The translations under genes were made by a program, and so were the position numbers. A stretch of 64,000 nucleotides of DNA from Desulfurococcus amylolyticus Z-533. Lineage in GTDB: Archaea; Thermoproteota; Thermoprotei_A; Sulfolobales; Desulfurococcaceae. Location: positions 758,484-822,483 of the forward strand of contig NZ_KI911318.1 of the NCBI RefSeq assembly GCF_000513855.1, in the 5' to 3' direction. Each line of letters begins with the position of its first letter. Position 1 is the stretch's first letter. The notes beneath the pieces are model-generated. The model was not told the origin of the DNA and ran no database searches. It saw only the letters and a list, made by a program, of their open reading frames with translations. Of this stretch, positions 22,507-45,924 are shown piece after piece.

Positions 22507-25440
22507 TTGGAACGGTGTCCAGGATTGAATGAAAGGGAGTTTCTAGAGTGGTTGAGGAGTATAGAGGCTAAGTGGCAAGCTAGGTGGAAGGAGAACAGGG
22601 TTTTCGAGGCGAACCCGGAACCAGGGAAGCCTAAGTACTTTATAACCGTACCATACCCCTACAGCAACGCACCTTTACACATAGGACATGGGAGAACATA
22701 TACTATTGGAGATATTATCGCAAGGTATAAGAGGCTGAAGGGATATAATGTCCTCTATCCCATGGCCTTTCATATAACGGGTACACCAGTGCTAGCTGTT
22801 TCAGAGATGATAGCACGTGGCGATGAACGCGTTGTCAACATGTATAAGTCGTATATAAGATACTATGTCAGCGATGAGGGAAAGGTTAACGAGATACTTG
22901 AATCATTCAAGAACCCATTGAATCTAGCCGTGTTCTTCGCTGAGAGGATACAATCAGACTTCGATGCCCTTGGATACAGTATCGACTGGAGGAGGAAATT
23001 CCATACCGGCGAACCCATATACAACAAGTTCGTCACGTGGCAATACCATAAACTCAATGAGAAGGGATTGATTACGATAGGTGATCACATTGTAACATAC
23101 TGCCTCCTCCATAAACAACCAGAAGGAGAGGACGATATACAGGACGCTGATGTGAACCCGGTTGAGATACTCGAGTACACAGCCGTGAAATTCCTTGACC
23201 CGGAATGGAAGGTGTACCTGGCAGCAGCGACGCTGAGACCCGAGACGATTTACGGTGTTACGAATCTATGGGTTAACCCTAATACAAAATACCTTGAGAT
23301 ATCCTTTGGAGACGAGGTGTTAATAGTATCGGAAAAAGCATATGTAAAACTGGTTCACCAGCATCCTGAGAAGGAGATAAGGGTTCTCAGAGAGATACCA
23401 GGTAAGGGATTAGTTGGTAGAAGAGTGGTCTCACCGCTTGGTAAGGAAGTAATTGTTCTACCAGCTGAATTCGTTGATCCAGATAACGCCACGGGGGTAG
23501 TCTATAGTGAGCCAAGTGATGCACCATACGACTACGTGGCTCTCCAGGAGTTAAAAGCCAATAAAAACATGCTTAGAGAATATGGCTTAAACCCTGAGAT
23601 AATTGACTCGATCACACCTATCAAGATAATTGATGTACCAGGGCTAAGTGATCACCATGCAAAAATAATAGTTGAGAAAATAGGTATTAAGAGCCAGATA
23701 GATGAGCGCCTGGAGGAGGTTAGCAAGGAGGTATATAGGGAGCAGTATTATAATGGAGTGATGATCGTCGATGACCCATTGGTGAAGGGTCTCACAGTTA
23801 AAGAAGCCAGGGAGGTCATTAGGAAGAGGCTGATCGACTCTAACCAGGCATTCATATTCTATGAGTTGAATAGAAAGGCAAAGTGTAGGTCGGGCGGTGA
23901 GATCATAGTAGCCAAGATAAGGGGGCAGTGGTTCCTCAACTATGGTGTGAAGGCCTTTAAGGAGAGGGTGAAGAAGTATATAGAAGAAGAGTTAGTAGTG
24001 ATCCCTGAGAAATACAGGAAGGCTTTCCTGGACACGGTGGACTGGCTGGATAAAAGACCCTGTGCTAGGAAGAGAGGTATTGGCACACCTTTACCATGGT
24101 CGCCTGACTGGATTATTGAGAGCCTAAGCGATTCAACAATATACATGGCGTTCTATACTATAGTGCATAAGATCCGTGAATACGGTATTAAACCAGAGTC
24201 GCTGACGCCGGAGTTATTCGACTACGTGTTCCTTGGAATAGGGGACCCTGTGGATGTCTCTAGTAAAACAAGTGTGCCGTTGAAGGTACTTGAGGAGATG
24301 CGGTCTGAATTCATGTATTGGTACCCGGTTGATCATAGGCATACATCTATACCGCATATAAGCAATCATCTCTCTTTCTACATATTTCACCACGTAGTGA
24401 TATTCCCGCGTGAGCACTGGCCCAGGATGATAACCCTGAACGAGACAGTGATACGTGAAGGAGCCAAAATGTCGAAGAGCAAGGGTAATGTAATACCCTT
24501 AAGGGATATCGCTAGACTATACTCAGCCGATTTATTCCGCCTTTACATATCATGGGCAGCCGGATTGGATAGCGTGCTGGATTGGAGAGAGAAGGAGGTG
24601 GCCATTGTAATAGATTCATTGAAGAGGTTTGTAGAGCTCGCTGAAAACGCTGTTGGAGCTGAGTGCAGGGATAACGCGGGTGATGATGCTGCCTCAAGAT
24701 GGTTTATGGATAAATTCCATCAGTTGATCAGTGATGCAAGCAGTAATATCGAACACATGGAGATACGGGAATATGTGCAGAATGCGTTCTTCAACGTATT
24801 ATCTCTGATCGATAAGTACCGTGATATAGTGGGTGATCGCTATCTCTGTAGTATTAAACAAGTATTAAGGGACTGGATCACAGTAGTGAACCCTGTGATA
24901 CCTCATGTAACAGAGGAGATAAATGAATTAATGGGTGGCAAGGGCTTCTTGTCCAAAGGCTCGTGGCCAACCTCTCGTGAAGCAAGGTATCCTGAGATAA
25001 CTACGGCCATCGATAACGCGTTAGCCCTTCAGGAAGATATAAGGGAGATACTTGGGTTAGTCAAGGGGGTGCCAGGGAAGATATATATTATAGTTGCGCC
25101 AGAGTGGAAGAGAGAGATAGCTGTTAAAACCCTGGATGGCATCCAGCTAAGAGAGATAATGGATTACATGAGAAGTAGATACGGGTTGAAGGGCAGGGAA
25201 GTCGAGATAGCCGAGGTCTACAACTACTTCAAGAAACAGCCAAATGAGAAGGTGAAGCTTATATCGAGCTCCACTGAATTCAATACTTACATGTATATGG
25301 CGCAATACTACTCCAGGAAGTTCAATGTGGATGTAGAGGTACTATGGGAGGATGATGCAAGGGCTAAAAGAATACCTAAATCAGAGAAGGCGCTGCCCCT
25401 TAAGCCCTCAATATATGTTGAATTAATCCATCAACGCTGA
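22507..25440 (+). CDS. leuS: Leucyl-tRNA synthetase, archaeal type
   Basis: Charges tRNA-Leu. 977 aa, usual length for archaeal/eukaryal LeuRS. Motifs: NAPLHIGHGRTY (HIGH, about residue 57), an inserted editing domain with a TLRPETIYGVTN threonine-rich segment, and GAKMSKSKGN (KMSKS, about residue 653), then an anticodon-binding domain and the C-terminal extension. The start is TTG at 22507; an in-frame stop lies four codons upstream (22492-22494) with no ATG or GTG between, so the non-standard start is well supported. Confidence 0.95.
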   Translation: MERCPGLNEREFLEWLRSIEAKWQARWKENRVFEANPEPGKPKYFITVPYPYSNAPLHIGHGRTYTIGDIIARYKRLKGYNVLYPMAFHITGTPVLAVSEMIARGDERVVNMYKSYIRYYVSDEGKVNEILESFKNPLNLAVFFAERIQSDFDALGYSIDWRRKFHTGEPIYNKFVTWQYHKLNEKGLITIGDHIVTYCLLHKQPEGEDDIQDADVNPVEILEYTAVKFLDPEWKVYLAAATLRPETIYGVTNLWVNPNTKYLEISFGDEVLIVSEKAYVKLVHQHPEKEIRVLREIPGKGLVGRRVVSPLGKEVIVLPAEFVDPDNATGVVYSEPSDAPYDYVALQELKANKNMLREYGLNPEIIDSITPIKIIDVPGLSDHHAKIIVEKIGIKSQIDERLEEVSKEVYREQYYNGVMIVDDPLVKGLTVKEAREVIRKRLIDSNQAFIFYELNRKAKCRSGGEIIVAKIRGQWFLNYGVKAFKERVKKYIEEELVVIPEKYRKAFLDTVDWLDKRPCARKRGIGTPLPWSPDWIIESLSDSTIYMAFYTIVHKIREYGIKPESLTPELFDYVFLGIGDPVDVSSKTSVPLKVLEEMRSEFMYWYPVDHRHTSIPHISNHLSFYIFHHVVIFPREHWPRMITLNETVIREGAKMSKSKGNVIPLRDIARLYSADLFRLYISWAAGLDSVLDWREKEVAIVIDSLKRFVELAENAVGAECRDNAGDDAASRWFMDKFHQLISDASSNIEHMEIREYVQNAFFNVLSLIDKYRDIVGDRYLCSIKQVLRDWITVVNPVIPHVTEEINELMGGKGFLSKGSWPTSREARYPEITTAIDNALALQEDIREILGLVKGVPGKIYIIVAPEWKREIAVKTLDGIQLREIMDYMRSRYGLKGREVEIAEVYNYFKKQPNEKVKLISSSTEFNTYMYMAQYYSRKFNVDVEVLWEDDARAKRIPKSEKALPLKPSIYVELIHQR

Positions 25441-25603
25441 TCAATCAGTCTTCTATTTTCTTTAAGGAGGTCCTCGACCGTAAAGTAGGATGTAAATGCT
25501 TAAGCCCGTGTTTTATAGCTGGGTGGTTGACTACTTGGTCTCAGTATTTAAATAGTTTTACAATTAGGATAAAACAATTAGAAAGCTAGGTGGTGTTTAA
25601 CTG

Positions 25604-26960
25604 TTGACGCTACTCGTTAAGAATGCCGGCATCCCTTTACCATCAGGGGATATAGTGGTTGGCAACATATATATTGAGGACGGTGTTATCACTTATATTG
25701 GTAGGAAAGAGATACAGGCTGACAGAGTCATCAACGCTGAAGAGAGATTAACTATACCTGGAGGCATAGACATACATGCCCATATATATGATCCGGCTTA
25801 CACTAGCAATGAAGACTGGGAGACAGGTAGTCTAGCAGCCGCATTCGGTGGTTTAACAACAATAGTTGATATGCCTCTCAGAACAATTGTTGATAACAGG
25901 AAAATCCTTGAGGAGAAGCTGAGTGAGGCTAGGAAGAACTCATATATAAACTATGGTGTGACAGGCGGCTTCATTAATGAGAAGAACTATAATTCTATAC
26001 CCGAGTTAGCACGATATGGTGTTAAAACATTCAAGTTCTTCACATGTAGACCATTCAAAATAAGCGATGAAGCGTTACCCGATGCCTTCGAACAAGTGGC
26101 TGTTGCTAATGGAGTCGCAATAGTGCATGCTGAAGACGAGTCATTGATAGGATACTGGGAGAAGAAGCTGTTATCGCAGAACAGCATCGCGGCGTTTCAC
26201 TTAAGTAGGACAGGCGCCACCGAGGCTTCAGCAATATATAGAGTCGGCTATATAAGCATAGATGTAGGTGCAAGGGTGCATATCGCCCATCTCTCCAGCA
26301 GAGAGGGGATTGAGGCTGTTGCAGTCCTTAGGAAGAAGATTGGTTTAACTAGTGAGGTAACGCCTCACCACTTATTCTTCACAAGGGATGAGACATCGAG
26401 GTTTGGAGCATACCTTAAAGTAGCCCCCACGATTAAAACAAGGGAGGATAGGGATGCATTATGGAGGGCTCTCGATGAAGGCATTATGGAGGGCTCTCGA
26501 TGAAGGCATTATAGACGCATATGTAAGTGATAACGCTCCAGCACCTAGAAGCATGAAGGAGGCTAATGTATGGGAGGCATGGGCCGGTATCCCTAATCTG
26601 GAGATAATGATTCCATTCTTATTTACATATGGTATTCTCCAAAGACGTATCTCGCTAGCTAGATTCATAGATGTTACATCAAGGAATCCGGCTAAAATAC
26701 TTGGCATCTACCCCTTAAAGGGTGAGTTATCGATTGGCAGTCATGCTGACCTAGTGATTCTTGAGACAGGAAAGTCTAAGAGAATAACCGCTTCAACCCA
26801 TCATCATAAAGTTGATTGGACCCCATGGGAGGGCATGGAATTGTATGGCTATCCATATTACCTAATAGTAAATGGGGAAGTAATCATAGAAAAATATGAG
26901 CTCATAGGTAAAAAAGGCTTTGGAACATATATTGGCGAGTTAAAGCCGAGGAAGAGGTAG
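25604..26960 (+). pseudogene. Dihydroorotase/allantoinase-type amidohydrolase, split by a 25-bp tandem duplication
   Basis: Cyclic amidohydrolase of the dihydroorotase, allantoinase and hydantoinase superfamily. Metal motifs are present: GGIDIHAHIYDP, a lysine segment (KTFKFFTCRPF), IVHAEDESL, RVHIAHLSSREG, EVTPHHLFF and the catalytic Asp region VSDNAPAP. A 25-bp unit at 26456-26480 is repeated exactly at 26481-26505, shifting the frame: the first frame ends at TGA 26501-26503 after 299 codons, and the rest is read in another frame to 26960. Removing one copy restores one protein of 443 aa, the normal family length. Start TTG 25604 with GGTGGTG upstream. It is followed by MarC after six bases. 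Confidence 0.9.
26456..26505 (+). repeat. Exact 25-bp tandem duplication, two full copies plus a 7-bp partial third
   Basis: Copies at 26456-26480 and 26481-26505 are identical; the next seven bases (GCATTAT, 26506-26512) repeat the start of the unit before diverging. Since 25 is not a multiple of three, the duplication is frame-shifting within the amidohydrolase gene. Confidence 0.98.
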
Positions 26961-26966
26961 TGTATT

Positions 26967-27578
26967 ATGGATTACTTGATTATACTGCTAAGTTACTTCA
27001 CACAGTTAATAGCTATAATGAATCCTTTCTCGGCTATACCTACATTTATGTCTCTTACCGAGGGATTAGAACGCCGTAGGAGGCTTGAGATAGTTAAGAA
27101 AGCGTATTTCGCGGGATTAATACTGGTAATACTTTTTACCCTGGTAGGTCGCTACATCCTTGAAGCATTCAACATCTCAATAGCCAGCCTCAGGGTTGGA
27201 GGAGGCATAATATTGATGACTATAGCGCTAGACATGCTCGGTGATGAGGTTAGAACTAAGCGTATGCATCCAGGCGATATAGCGGTCGTACCAATAGCAA
27301 CGCCCCTTATCATCGGGCCGGGTACCATAACAACCATACTCTTGTTGACATCGTCTCTCCAGGAGACAACTGGTATGGTAGTGGTTTTAATTGCTGGAGT
27401 TATAGCTTGTAGCGTTACATTCCTTATACTAGCTCTAAGTGACATATTGACAAGGCTCTTAAGCATGTCTACTGTGCGCGCTATAGGTAGATTCATGGCG
27501 TTGATTATCTCCGGTGTAGCAGTTGAGATGATTGTCCAGGGGTTGTATAGCTATTACGTTGAGTTATTTAAGGGCTAG
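26967..27578 (+). CDS. MarC-family integral membrane protein
   Basis: 203-aa polytopic membrane protein of the MarC/UPF0056 family. Signatures are the N-terminal TQLIAIMNPFSAIPTF and the central IATPLIIGPGTITT. The biochemical role of the family is not established; it is not needed for multidrug resistance despite the name. It starts six bases after the split amidohydrolase gene and overlaps the 3' end of the convergent CDF-like gene by 11 bases. Confidence 0.88.
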   Translation: MDYLIILLSYFTQLIAIMNPFSAIPTFMSLTEGLERRRRLEIVKKAYFAGLILVILFTLVGRYILEAFNISIASLRVGGGIILMTIALDMLGDEVRTKRMHPGDIAVVPIATPLIIGPGTITTILLLTSSLQETTGMVVVLIAGVIACSVTFLILALSDILTRLLSMSTVRAIGRFMALIISGVAVEMIVQGLYSYYVELFKG

Positions 27579-30069: not shown

Positions 30070-30306
30070 TTATCTGGAGGGCAGTCGATGGGGCCAGAGA
30101 TCCCCCATCTGGAGCTTAGCTAGTGTTCTTCTCTCAATGTTTAGAATCGCTATGTGGTCTCTATCCCCTTCGAAACCACATCTAGGGCATTTAAGTCTTC
30201 TATAACCGTTCTCCCTTAGCTTAGCCCCGCACCCAGGGCACTTAGTTGACGTTCCTCTAGGGTCAATAGTTACTACTGGGACACCGTGTTTCTCAGCCTG
30301 CCAGTC
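30070..30306 (-). pseudogene. TnpB (IS200/IS605-type) C-terminal remnant
   Basis: Only the last ~78 codons of a TnpB nuclease are recognisable: WQAEKHGVPVVTIDPRGTS, the zinc ribbon (CPGCG and CPRCGFEG) and the RuvC-III segment GDRDHIAILNIE with its Asp. The first two RuvC acidic motifs and the N-terminal RNA-binding part are absent. The open frame continues upstream to 30645, but that stretch is not TnpB-like and overlaps the oppositely oriented biotin-carboxylase gene. The element is therefore a decayed relic that kept its 3' end. Confidence 0.85.
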
Positions 30307-30508
30307 CGAGCGGGGTAACCCTAGATGTGAGCCCTGTGCCGTTGGGCTTGAAGGACGCCCATGACCCCCATATAGAGTGGTCAGTGACCACAGTGAAGCA
30401 CGGGGCCGGGGCACAATCAGTCCTAGGCAAACATACAACAACCTAGGACTGGAAATGGTTGGTTTTATTAAGTATGTGAGAATAATGTAGGTTAAGATAA
30501 GGAGGTCA
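30307..30508. other. Non-coding remnant between the tnpB relic and the carboxylase gene
   Basis: No gene is visible. On the plus strand, 30330-30410 shares patches (GCCCTG...TTGG...CCCATG...GTGAAGCA) with 63048-63110, suggesting both derive from the same degenerate element. The right part (30440-30500) is AT-rich with TATA-like TTTTATTAAG and holds the promoter of the downstream gene. Confidence 0.35.
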
Positions 30509-30511
30509 GTG

Positions 30512-32020
30512 ATGTCTAGGAGGATACTTATTGCTAATAAGGGAGAGGTGGCTGTAAGGATAGCCCGTACCCTTATTGAAAAAGGATACCACCCCTTAGG
30601 AGTATATGTCAGCAACGATGAGTTGAGCCCCCATAGAAGATACATGGTTGAAGAGGCGAAGATATCGAGCTACACAAACACAGAGGAGATTATTGAGGCT
30701 GCATTAGAGCTCGGTGCAGAAGCCATACACCCAGGGTACGGCTTACTCGAGAGCGAACCGGGGTTTTCCCAGGAGGTTGCACGCAGGGGATTAATATTCG
30801 TTGGCCCACCGCCTGGTCAAATAGAATTTGCTCGTGATAAACTAGCTGTCAAAACACTGGCGGAGAAGCTTGAAATACCGACCCTTCCATGGAGCCTTGT
30901 GAAAAACGAGGAGGATCTCGAGGAATTCGTAAGAACGTATGGCTATCCATTAATACTTAAACCCGTAAAAGGTAACTGGGGTAGGGGGCTTAGGATACTG
31001 TGGAGCGAGAAGGATCGAGACCAATTGAAGACCCTTATCAAGGAAGCCGAGAAAATATACAGGGATTCAAGGATATATGTCGAGCCATATATAACAAACG
31101 TTAAACACATAGAGATACAATTAATTGGTGACGGGGAGAAAGTAATTCATTTATATGATAGGGAATGCAGTATCCAGGATAACTACATGAAAATCCTTGT
31201 GGAGGCTCCCTCCACACTCCAAGTTAATGGTTTACGGGAAAAAATACTCAATTACGCCTTGTCAATCGGGGAAGCTATGAGGCTGAGAAATCTTGCAACA
31301 ATAGAGTTTCTATATGATGCAAGAAGTCGCAGTGTCTTCCTTAATGAAGTAAACATGGGTCTATCCCCTGAGCACGCTGTCACAGAGGCTGTCACTAGGA
31401 TTGACCTAGTTGAGAAGCAGGTTGAGGCGGCCCTATATTCTACAATAGGATTGAAGCAAGAAAACGTCTCATTGAATGGGTGGGCTTTCCAGGCCAAGGT
31501 ATTTAATAAAAACATATTCAGGGATGAGCCTTCAAGCGGCTTAATTAAGACTTATAACGAGCCCAACGGCTTAGGAGTAGCATGTGACACTGGGATAGCT
31601 CCAGGAGTTAAGGTAAGAGACGAGTACACCCTCTTGGTTAAGGTGCTTGCCTGGGGGAGCAGTAGGCTTATAGCTTTAAATAGGCTGAAGCGTGCCTTAA
31701 ACGATATATATATCAATGGAGTGCACACCAATATACCAGTGCTAAGGGAGATCCTTGACTCGAAGGATGTTGAAAACGGGATCTACAACACCAGATTCCT
31801 CGTGGAGAAGAGGGATGAAATTATCTCTAAGCTCAGAGAAAGAATGCTGCTCCACGCTATCGCATCTATCTCCCTGATCGAGTACGGTAGTAAGGAGGCA
31901 AGGAAAATACTTGGAGAAGGCAAGTTGAGTACTGAGAAGATAATGGAGAATGCTTCAAGAACAAAGAGGACAGCATGGTTCTACTACGCCAGGCTAAGGG
32001 AGAGGATTAGGAGAAAATAA
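30512..32020 (+). CDS. Biotin carboxylase homologue with altered active site
   Basis: ATP-grasp protein of 502 aa with the full biotin carboxylase fold order: N-terminal RRILIANKGEVAVRIART, HPGYGLLSE-like AIHPGYGLLESEP, ATP-grasp, and C-terminal domain. Key sites differ from active enzymes. The Gly-rich loop normally GGGGKG reads KGNWGRG, the DCSxQRRxQK segment reads ECSIQDNYMK, and the catalytic Asn-x-Arg of EMNTRIQVEH is replaced in EVNMGLSPEH (Arg to Gly). The later GHAIECR-like segment reads GWAFQAK. ATP or biotin carboxylation may be lost or changed. ATG 30512 follows a perfect AAGGAGGTC ribosome site; GTG 30509 is less likely. Confidence 0.82.
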   Translation: MSRRILIANKGEVAVRIARTLIEKGYHPLGVYVSNDELSPHRRYMVEEAKISSYTNTEEIIEAALELGAEAIHPGYGLLESEPGFSQEVARRGLIFVGPPPGQIEFARDKLAVKTLAEKLEIPTLPWSLVKNEEDLEEFVRTYGYPLILKPVKGNWGRGLRILWSEKDRDQLKTLIKEAEKIYRDSRIYVEPYITNVKHIEIQLIGDGEKVIHLYDRECSIQDNYMKILVEAPSTLQVNGLREKILNYALSIGEAMRLRNLATIEFLYDARSRSVFLNEVNMGLSPEHAVTEAVTRIDLVEKQVEAALYSTIGLKQENVSLNGWAFQAKVFNKNIFRDEPSSGLIKTYNEPNGLGVACDTGIAPGVKVRDEYTLLVKVLAWGSSRLIALNRLKRALNDIYINGVHTNIPVLREILDSKDVENGIYNTRFLVEKRDEIISKLRERMLLHAIASISLIEYGSKEARKILGEGKLSTEKIMENASRTKRTAWFYYARLRERIRRK

Positions 32021-39859: not shown

Positions 39860-42124
39860 TTGAAGACACGATATTACCTGCATTATCTACTATTATTTCT
39901 CATAATACTTGGTTCAATAGTATACTTGAATACGTATATTGCGGCTGCTGAGACAACCCCGGCTATACCCTCTATAACAAGTAATATAACCGAGATAATC
40001 ACCGCTAACATGGGACCAGTTGTACCAGTTATAATGTCACCCGGGGAATCGTTCATCATAGAGCTTAGGCCGGAGTATTCTTCTCTCAGTATCTCCTCAG
40101 CGTACATATGGACTGTTAAACCAGTTAGCAACCGGCTTGTAGTCTACAATTACACTTTAAGTATAAGCAGTGTAGGTCCAGGCATATACCAGGCTACTAT
40201 ATCATCAGAAGTTGAGGATGGATTATATGACTTATCTCTTCTAGCAGGCTCAACAGTATACAATGTGCCTAGATCAGTATGGGTGGTGAAGTCCTGGCCT
40301 TCAGTGATCAGATTCGTAGAGAACACTGATATACACTTCATAGCAGGCCAACCAAATCCATTTACAGGTGATATTAATCGTATAGCTGGATTTACTATAG
40401 ATAACATGTTATCACCCTTCTTCATTCTATGGCTCGGCGATGAAGCTGACACTGCTGCTTCATCAGAATATGTGATGACTCTCGCGTACAGGTATGCCTA
40501 TCTATATAACATACCTGTGTTAGGCATACCCGGGAACCACGATTACGCCTCCGGGGGTACTTATTATATGAATTATCTTGGACCCACGAAGTGGTTTAGA
40601 GTAATAGCTGGTAAGCTACTTATAATAGGTATATGGTCACCCGAGCAAGGATACCCATCATGGGAAGACCTAGTATTTGCCCAACAGGTGCTCCAGAATT
40701 ATAGTAGTATACCCTATAAGATGATATTAGTCCATCATCCGCCATTCTATTATCAGGGCGAACTATACACTAGGTATGATGATGAAAACGTGTTGAAACC
40801 ATATGTTCAAGGCGGTCCCTCCACACCGTTGAGTAGTTATTGGTCAAGTAACATGACAGCGTTCAGATACTTCTTGAAACTCGTGGAGGACTATAATGTA
40901 ACAATGGTTTTATCCGGTCACACGCACAGGGACTTCTTCACGAAGTATGTGAGTACTAGGACTAATACGACAACCCTATTCCTCACATTTACAACGTTGT
41001 CGCAGGGCTCAGCATCTTATGATGGATTAAGCCTCATGGAGTTCGACTTGAATACTGGTCGATTAGACTTCCCGTTAAAGCCGCCTACATTTATTGGTTT
41101 CCAGAACTCTACGAGGGCCCTGGCTTTAAACAGTATACCAATAGGAATATATCCGGTTCAAAATAGCCTTGGATGGAGTAATTTAACGTTTACATATATG
41201 AATGCTGTTTACTCCGATGCAGGTTACACGTTTAGATTCGAGAATAATAATATATCATGGATTAACTTCTCTGGCACCATGCTATGGAGCCTGCCATGGG
41301 CTGGTAACAATGTAAACTATCAAGTGGTTAACGTCTTGAATAATGCATCCATAAAGATCATTGATTACAAGATCATTGGGGGCAGGCTCTTCCTATTATT
41401 CGAGTTAAACCTGCCTTTCCAGGGCGGGTTAACATTAAGGCTGTACACAAATCCTGACTCCAAGCCGCCTATGATATCCCTGAGAAGAACAGTGCCGCAA
41501 ACACCCTCCGTTAATAGGGATGTGACAATATATATTGAGTTATCTGATGAGGGGTTGGGGATAGATCCGGGTAGTATAGTGGTTAGACTGGGGAACAACG
41601 TAATTAATTATAGTAGTATGCCTCAAAGAAATACCTATACAATGAGTCCAAGCACCTACACGGAGAAATTCAACATTGTAACCCTTGTTATAACAGTATA
41701 TGTCTCCTCTAATACGACGGTGACACAGCCACTGTTAATCCAGGTAGCGGATAATGCTGGAAACCCAGCCAATGCATCATTCAACATTACATTCGTGGGT
41801 CCCATGTTGACTACCACAACTACAACAACTACTGCGGCTACAACAACTACGACCACTACCACAACACCTCCTACGACTACAACAACCACCACTACCACAA
41901 CTACAACAACTACTGCGGCTACAACAACTACGACCACTTCAACTACAGCGGCAACTACCACAACTACAACAACCACTACCACAACGACTACTACTACTGC
42001 GGCTACAACAACTACTGCTATACCTTCTGGAGAAGCATCTCACCTTATCATGCTGGGAATAGCTGTGGTTGTTGTAGTGGTCATTATATTATTAGTGTCA
42101 TTGATGAAGAGTGGTGGAAAATAG
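39860..42124 (+). CDS. Large secreted metallophosphoesterase with poly-Thr stalk
   Basis: 754 aa. A signal helix (LLLFLIILGSIVYLNTYIAA) is followed by a beta-rich N-terminal domain, then a phosphoesterase core with NTDIHFIAG, LWLGDEADT, GIPGNHDYASG, LVHHPPF and LSGHTHRDF. An Ig-like domain follows (about 550-650), then about 65 residues of nearly pure Thr/Ala/Pro (about 655-722) and a C-terminal helix with GGK tail. This is a surface-anchored enzyme on a probably glycosylated stalk. The start is TTG at 39860 just after GGGTGAT; the nearby ATG (39855) is closed by a stop after two codons. Confidence 0.85.
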   Translation: MKTRYYLHYLLLFLIILGSIVYLNTYIAAAETTPAIPSITSNITEIITANMGPVVPVIMSPGESFIIELRPEYSSLSISSAYIWTVKPVSNRLVVYNYTLSISSVGPGIYQATISSEVEDGLYDLSLLAGSTVYNVPRSVWVVKSWPSVIRFVENTDIHFIAGQPNPFTGDINRIAGFTIDNMLSPFFILWLGDEADTAASSEYVMTLAYRYAYLYNIPVLGIPGNHDYASGGTYYMNYLGPTKWFRVIAGKLLIIGIWSPEQGYPSWEDLVFAQQVLQNYSSIPYKMILVHHPPFYYQGELYTRYDDENVLKPYVQGGPSTPLSSYWSSNMTAFRYFLKLVEDYNVTMVLSGHTHRDFFTKYVSTRTNTTTLFLTFTTLSQGSASYDGLSLMEFDLNTGRLDFPLKPPTFIGFQNSTRALALNSIPIGIYPVQNSLGWSNLTFTYMNAVYSDAGYTFRFENNNISWINFSGTMLWSLPWAGNNVNYQVVNVLNNASIKIIDYKIIGGRLFLLFELNLPFQGGLTLRLYTNPDSKPPMISLRRTVPQTPSVNRDVTIYIELSDEGLGIDPGSIVVRLGNNVINYSSMPQRNTYTMSPSTYTEKFNIVTLVITVYVSSNTTVTQPLLIQVADNAGNPANASFNITFVGPMLTTTTTTTTAATTTTTTTTTPPTTTTTTTTTTTTTTAATTTTTTSTTAATTTTTTTTTTTTTTTAATTTTAIPSGEASHLIMLGIAVVVVVVIILLVSLMKSGGK
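41818..42017 (+). repeat. Low-complexity Thr-codon repeat (ACN-rich)
   Basis: About 200 bases of imperfect ACA/ACT/ACC triplets with interspersed GCGGCT encode the poly-Thr/Ala stalk. Blocks recur within the tract, and one 28-base stretch (from about 41849) matches the linker of the binding-protein gene at about 44460. The antisense reading is an artefactual poly-Val frame. Confidence 0.9.
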
Positions 42125-44343: not shown

Positions 44344-45924
44344 ATGACTCATGCTCTCACTAAGCTTCAAGCACTATTTATTTCAGTAGTTATCATAATA
44401 GCAGTAATAGGGGTATTCCTTGGTACACGAACTCTGATTCCACCAGCTATAACTACCACAACTACAACAACTACGACCACTACCACAACGACTACGACAA
44501 GTAAGCCTTCATATCCTGAGTATCCATGGCTGGATCAATTAAAGCAGATGACCACAGAGAGGAATGTAGAGCTAATAGTGATAACAAGGCATGAACAATC
44601 CATCCTAAGTGAGACTACAAAGGAGTTCCTGAATTCTCCAGTAGCGAAGGAGCTGGGTATAGTCAATATACGGTTTTTATCTGTGTCAGCTGAATTATGG
44701 TCCAGCTATATTGATAACGCTGCCAAGGCAGGTAGGCCAATAGACATAGCATGGGGTGGCGGTCCTACACTATTTAACACTATGGATTCCCTGGGATATC
44801 TCCTACCTATTAACCTAAGTAAGCCTGAGTTTCAGGCAATAAAATATGAGATGGATAAGATACCGAGGATTATAGGTGGGGCCGAGGCATACAAGGTTGA
44901 CCAGAATGGATTAGTACGATGGATCGGGGCTAGTGTAAGTAGCTTCGGCTTCACAGCGAACCTCATACGCTTAAACCAGTATGGATTACCAATACCACAG
45001 AAATGGGAGGATCTAGCGAGCCCTGTTTACGCAAAGTACCTGCCCGATATACCACAGATATCTACAGCTGATCCAACCATGAGTACGAGTAACACTAGGA
45101 TCTTTGAGATAATTTTACAGGCTAAAGGATGGGATGAGGGATGGAGGATTCTTACACTACTAGCTGCAAATGCCATAATATATTCTGGAAGCAGCGATGC
45201 CCGCGACGCAGTGATAAAGGGTGATGTAGCTATAGGTACGACAATAGACTTCTACGGTTACATGGCTCAGCAAGTTAATCCTAATTGCAAGTATATAGCA
45301 CCTCAGGGAGAAACTATAATTAATAGTGATCCAATAGCAATCCTAAACACCACGAAGCACCTGATCCATGCTGTAGCGTTTGTTGCATGGGTACTTAACG
45401 AGTATGGCGGGCAACAGGTCTGGCTCAATACTGATATCAATAGGCTGCCAGTGAATCCATACGTCTTCAATACAACACAGGGTCAAAACAGGCAAGACTT
45501 AAAGCAAGCCTTCCAGGATGCATTGAATGCGCAGAGTATATTATTCAACGAGACTCTTTCAACAAACTGGGTATACTCAATTATGTACTACTTCAAGGCT
45601 ACATTAGTGAATCCACATGCCGATCTACAAGCTACATGGGCAAGAATAGCCCAAGCCTATTTGAATGGTAAAATAAGTAAGGAATGGTTCGACTACTTAT
45701 CCATGTATATATCAAAACCACTCACATTCACGGATCCTGTAACGGGTAAGCAAACCAATTTCACATTGGATTACGCAGTGTTCATTAATCAGAGACTTCA
45801 AAAGGATGCAGCGGTGTACCAGTCGTTAATGAGTCAATGGGAGCAGCTGGCTAGGCAGAGGTATCTTAATGCATTAAACCTGTTAAATGACGCATTAGCT
45901 GGAAAACCAATCCCTTCTAGCTGA
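44344..45924 (+). CDS. ABC importer substrate-binding protein with poly-Thr linker
   Basis: Extracellular binding protein of about 526 aa, of the cluster with Fe3+, thiamine and polyamine binding proteins. A signal/anchor helix (LFISVVIIIAVIGVFLGT) is followed by a run of about 17 threonines, then the binding fold starting ELIVITRHEQSILSETT. WGGGPTLFNTM and IKGDVAIGTTIDF are typical ligand-pocket regions. The substrate is unknown. The frame is open to 44308, but the ATG at 44344 directly follows GGGGGAGTG and starts the hydrophobic helix in the usual place. It is the first gene of a three-gene importer. Confidence 0.85.
   Translation: MTHALTKLQALFISVVIIIAVIGVFLGTRTLIPPAITTTTTTTTTTTTTTTTSKPSYPEYPWLDQLKQMTTERNVELIVITRHEQSILSETTKEFLNSPVAKELGIVNIRFLSVSAELWSSYIDNAAKAGRPIDIAWGGGPTLFNTMDSLGYLLPINLSKPEFQAIKYEMDKIPRIIGGAEAYKVDQNGLVRWIGASVSSFGFTANLIRLNQYGLPIPQKWEDLASPVYAKYLPDIPQISTADPTMSTSNTRIFEIILQAKGWDEGWRILTLLAANAIIYSGSSDARDAVIKGDVAIGTTIDFYGYMAQQVNPNCKYIAPQGETIINSDPIAILNTTKHLIHAVAFVAWVLNEYGGQQVWLNTDINRLPVNPYVFNTTQGQNRQDLKQAFQDALNAQSILFNETLSTNWVYSIMYYFKATLVNPHADLQATWARIAQAYLNGKISKEWFDYLSMYISKPLTFTDPVTGKQTNFTLDYAVFINQRLQKDAAVYQSLMSQWEQLARQRYLNALNLLNDALAGKPIPSS

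Follow-up and report, generated by a model that had tools for sequence, protein, structure and literature searches.

The window analysed here is the 64,000-nucleotide stretch G000:C1:758484-822483 of the Desulfurococcus amylolyticus genome, which consists of one contig of 1,307,099 bp. At 25604–26960, the window contains a cyclic amidohydrolase gene that is broken by a short tandem duplication. The gene and its immediate surroundings are as follows:

22507–25440, + strand: leuS, the intact upstream neighbour, sharing 78% identity with its syntenic counterpart in the sister genome
25545–25554, + strand: possible TATA box, TATTTAAATA, picked out by eye
25588–25595, + strand: Shine-Dalgarno-like site, AGGTGGTG, 8 nt ahead of the TTG start
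25604–26503, + strand: ORF1, the N-terminal 299 codons of the cyclic amidohydrolase, ending inside the duplicated segment
26454–26960, + strand: ORF2, the enzyme's C-terminal part of 168 aa, in a different frame from ORF1 and overlapping it
26456–26480, + strand: copy 1 of the 25-bp unit, GCATTATGGAGGGCTCTCGATGAAG, from tandem-array analysis
26481–26505, + strand: copy 2 of the 25-bp unit, identical to copy 1, from tandem-array analysis
26506–26512, + strand: GCATTAT, a 7-bp direct repeat of ancestral origin, 25 bp from its partner; the probable slippage site
26967–27578, + strand: gene for a MarC-family membrane protein, the intact downstream neighbour

The perfect tandem array at 26456–26512 has a period of 25 and 2.28 copies that are 100% identical. 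Agreement at 32 positions in register at a single offset far exceeds what chance would give. As the 25-bp period is not divisible by 3, the gene is read as ORF1 and ORF2 in different frames. Both open frames match the Pfam family Amidohydro_1 (E = 5e-9 for ORF1 and 1e-12 for ORF2), and they are 77% and 79% identical, respectively, to the corresponding parts of the ortholog in the sister genome. When only one copy is read, the gene is 1332 nt long and encodes 443 amino acids and a stop. The first-pass annotation of this DNA had described an exact, out-of-frame 25-bp duplication that splits the gene and whose deletion restores a 443-residue protein, and this description is confirmed. Its figure of 2.28 copies is also right, but the additional 0.28 copy does not represent a third, incomplete duplication; it is the ancestral short repeat, which most likely served as template for the event.

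In the single-copy reading, GCATTAT stands twice, 25 bp apart, at both ends of the segment that was duplicated. Homology of at least 7 bp in this arrangement is found for only 0.09% (0.0009) of random 10–60-bp duplications in the window, which suggests slipped mispairing as the origin. A perfect head-to-tail copy of a segment that is single in the relatives, with 7-bp repeats at its ends, is what a slippage-type duplication allele should look like. The sister species does not have the 7-bp repeat, with GCCCTCT and GCGTCAT in its place, and hence the opportunity for slippage is not conserved.

The sister genome (G001, one contig of 1,314,639 bp) is what we take to be that of Desulfurococcus mucosus DSM 2162. 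Its ortholog occupies the corresponding place between leuS and marC as a single open frame, and AGAGGTGGTAGTTTG is found where the Shine-Dalgarno-like site lies in the broken gene. From 21.3 to 34.7 kb, the window and the sister genome are collinear, with the amidohydrolase gene as the one split gene observed. We extracted 29 relatives of the protein, 28 of which reach past the duplicated segment. All 28 encode the segment once and in frame, up to an SDNAP or SDHAP motif, and none of them has a repeat at the duplication site. By the first-pass annotation's own test, in-frame coding of the repeated segment in all family members would have spoken against it; the relatives have one copy, not two. 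A search of genome contigs gave distant euryarchaeal relatives only. Most family members from Desulfurococcaceae have SDNAP and more distant relatives have SDHAP, a change of His to Asn beside the catalytic Asp.

The two halves of the broken gene have diverged from the sister ortholog to nearly the same extent, with dN of 0.137 for the N-terminal half and 0.126 for the C-terminal half. In the family tree, the branch to the broken gene has a length of 0.16, compared with 0.18 for the intact sister gene, so there is no acceleration. Among 88 strictly conserved columns, each of these two sequences departs at one. At a looser threshold of 90% conservation, the broken gene departs at 7 columns and the sister gene at 1; this excess is small and mostly conservative, and it may point to some relaxation before the break. 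Apart from the duplication, the gene has no lesion. Because both halves are equally constrained, the break is likely to be recent, as the first-pass annotation had suggested; its argument that the undecayed halves speak against an old pseudogene also stands. An old or decayed pseudogene is ruled out by the constraint in both halves, the branch length, and the single lesion. Synonymous sites are saturated relative to the sister species, and thus the break cannot be dated and only the absence of decay limits its age.

What activity would the intact enzyme have? The ortholog from the sister species can be aligned along its entire length with the L-selective hydantoinase of PDB entry 1gkr (E = 2e-65), and we assigned the metal-site motifs from this alignment. 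The metal-site His and Lys residues are in ORF1, in the motifs HAH, TFKFF (the lysine), VHAED, and HIAHLSS. The SDNAP motif, with the catalytic Asp, is in ORF2, and ORF1 is without that strand. The enzyme thus resembles the L-selective hydantoinase and the cyclic amidohydrolase family in its full-length alignment and its metal-site motifs, but it differs from the family in having SDNAP instead of the usual SDH and in missing the NCBIfam cut-offs. It is closest to hydantoinases, and allantoinases are then also near. With TIGR00857, the dihydroorotase model, the intact ortholog scores 275.6, just under the cut-off of 279.05. The initial description of the gene as dihydroorotase/allantoinase-type therefore holds at the level of the superfamily, but not more closely, since the intact ortholog is below the NCBIfam cut-offs and is best matched by hydantoinases, and the gene is not the pyrC of the D. 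amylolyticus genome.

A pyrC-like paralog in this genome is intact. It lies at position 902005 of the genome and directly precedes pyrB, the two genes together occupying about 901.9–904.3 kb (L034 5934-8302). Its score with TIGR00857 is 319.9, which passes the cut-off, so the broken gene is not the dihydroorotase of the pathway. We had also considered the broken gene itself as the de novo dihydroorotase PyrC, and this assignment was rejected, as its intact sister ortholog is below the TIGR00857 cut-off and sits between leuS and marC, and the paralog beside pyrB is the better candidate. The pyrC-like paralog passes both NCBIfam cut-offs, for dihydroorotase (TIGR00857) and for allantoinase (TIGR03178). 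The genome also has pyrE, a pyrK-like gene, and pyrD; the PyrI regulatory subunit was not found in the genus Desulfurococcus.

In a third species (G002, contig C3), the match to leuS runs to 283937 and that to marC begins at 284008. With about 70 bp between these matches, the amidohydrolase gene is absent from its place between the two neighbours. With the gene broken in D. amylolyticus, absent at that place in the third species, and intact in the presumed D. mucosus, it appears from these comparisons to be dispensable in Desulfurococcus. The leuS of the third species (G002:C3:281045-283937) is itself divided between two frames close to its 3′ end, into open stretches 926 and 58 codons long, owing either to a true frameshift or to an error in sequencing.

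We suggest that the gene carries a recent loss-of-function allele made by slippage duplication, and we put the probability of this reading at about 0.78. Replicating DNA would have slipped between the two GCATTAT repeats, 25 bp apart inside the gene, duplicating the 25-bp segment and shifting the reading frame. The most that the cell would then make is an N-terminal piece of 299 residues that lacks the catalytic Asp, together with a separate C-terminal piece if internal starts were used, and the enzyme would most likely be inactive. The loss would be tolerated because the hydantoinase-like amidohydrolase is outside de novo pyrimidine synthesis. Duplications of this kind have been described in Sulfolobus acidocaldarius, where 13 of 163 spontaneous pyrE mutations (8%) were tandem duplications of more than 5 bp (PMC7785828, Table 6), and the present allele is thus of an ordinary type in this phylum. 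The pyrE knock-outs (PMC7785828; PMC3139894) likewise have a crenarchaeal metabolic gene disrupted by a short tandem duplication longer than 5 bp, but they were selected in the laboratory, whereas the allele here is in a deposited genome and in a different gene.

Could the duplication instead be an error of assembly or consensus, with one copy and an intact gene in the real chromosome? The genome appears to be the Illumina draft of D. amylolyticus Z-533T, which was assembled with Velvet and ALLPATHS-LG from 28 million 150-bp reads into one scaffold (two contigs) of 1,309,099 bp with 45.2% G+C (PMC5391401); the G+C content of the 478 kb that we sampled is 45.1%. A falsely doubled contig overlap can produce a short tandem repeat without mismatches, and every relative has the gene intact. 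However, the array of 57 bp is well within a 150-bp read, and 28 million reads give very deep coverage. The window contains no N, and no similar gene-breaking duplication is present in the 478 kb sampled. Furthermore, the junction is located at a pre-existing 7-bp direct repeat, as biological slippage predicts, and a repeat of this length is irrelevant to assemblers that use far longer words. The junction homology, together with an array far shorter than the reads, makes an assembly error unlikely. The allele is known from one assembly, and the papers covered on other sequenced strains of the species make no mention of the gene. A reversible on/off switch, in which loss or gain of a 25-bp copy turns the enzyme on or off, had also been proposed in the first-pass annotation, and we consider it very improbable. 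Slippage can drop a perfect direct repeat and so restore the frame exactly, and both halves are undecayed, but any new tandem duplication can revert, and revertibility alone is therefore no sign of a switch or of selection for one. The resemblance to bacterial contingency loci with tandem-repeat phase variation is that a change in repeat number would change the frame. Such loci have a repeat that is conserved in relatives and either a many-copy tract or several loci in the genome. Here, there are only two copies (2.28), no relative has the repeat at this site, and even the 7-bp repeat is missing in the sister species. Our survey of perfect arrays covered 478 kb of the genome (37% of it, including 20 further stretches) and 417 kb of the sister genome, and no other gene-interrupting perfect tandem duplication was found in either. 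The product, a metabolic hydrolase, is also atypical for a phase-variable gene. We thus have little expectation that this hyperthermophilic archaeon has a naturally reversible frame switch with a one-copy subpopulation that makes the full enzyme.

The remaining explanations accept the two copies and keep the gene functional. It might work in two pieces, with ORF2 translated from an internal ATG, or by recoding, with a +1 shift in the overlap. Candidate starts in the ORF2 frame are the ATGs at 26454 and 26475, each with GGAGG a few bases upstream (26443–26447 and 26463–26467), and the folding of this mRNA region beats 199 of 200 shuffles. However, the upstream GGAGG and the ATG at 26454 belong to the normal coding sequence of the segment, while the other start site falls within the duplicated unit. 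The strong fold is explained by the near-palindromic GAGGGCTCTC, which has been duplicated. The enzyme is a single polypeptide in every relative, and a break just ahead of the last barrel strand, which carries the catalytic Asp, is unlikely to give a viable split. Nothing suggests that the ORF1 and ORF2 pieces work, and we regard this explanation as even less probable than a switch. The least credible of the alternatives is a 25-nt archaeal mRNA intron excised by the tRNA-splicing endonuclease. Excision of 25 nt at any point in the array brings back the frame, and there is a precedent in the mRNA introns of crenarchaeal cbf5 (PMC2738675). An intron would not have to duplicate the neighbouring exon exactly, though, and there is none at this site in any relative. 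Moreover, a bulge-helix-bulge arrangement fitting the excision of 25 nt was not found at the array, and the intron was rejected for want of this motif at the two splice sites.

The first-pass annotation was thus right in what it observed, and its interpretation is partly supported: a recent event most likely accounts for the locus, and the switch is not supported. Loss of function by slippage duplication is a gene-breaking mutation of an ordinary kind in a hot-spring archaeon, and the locus offers a tidy case, from nature and from a hyperthermophile, of a gene broken by slippage between short direct repeats. This fits the picture of a hydantoinase-like gene that is dispensable in Desulfurococcus. 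Recognition of the duplication should also help annotators not to take the two halves for two genes.

Some other features were seen in the course of the analysis. The only other perfect array in the sample with a unit of more than 6 bp is a 15-bp tandem duplication (CAGGTGTTCTAAATA) at L052 16288-16317, which has no long open frame across it. Imperfect tandem arrays rich in ACN are located at 41810–42016 and 44451–44498 of the window; in the ACN frame, they would give Thr-rich stretches, which are typical of linkers in archaeal surface proteins. On the − strand, an ORF at 30070–30645 has a C-terminal TnpB-type zinc ribbon (Cas12f1-like_TNB) and overlaps the start of a biotin carboxylase-like gene. 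As the match is confined to its last part, this ORF is probably a remnant of an IS605-type element.
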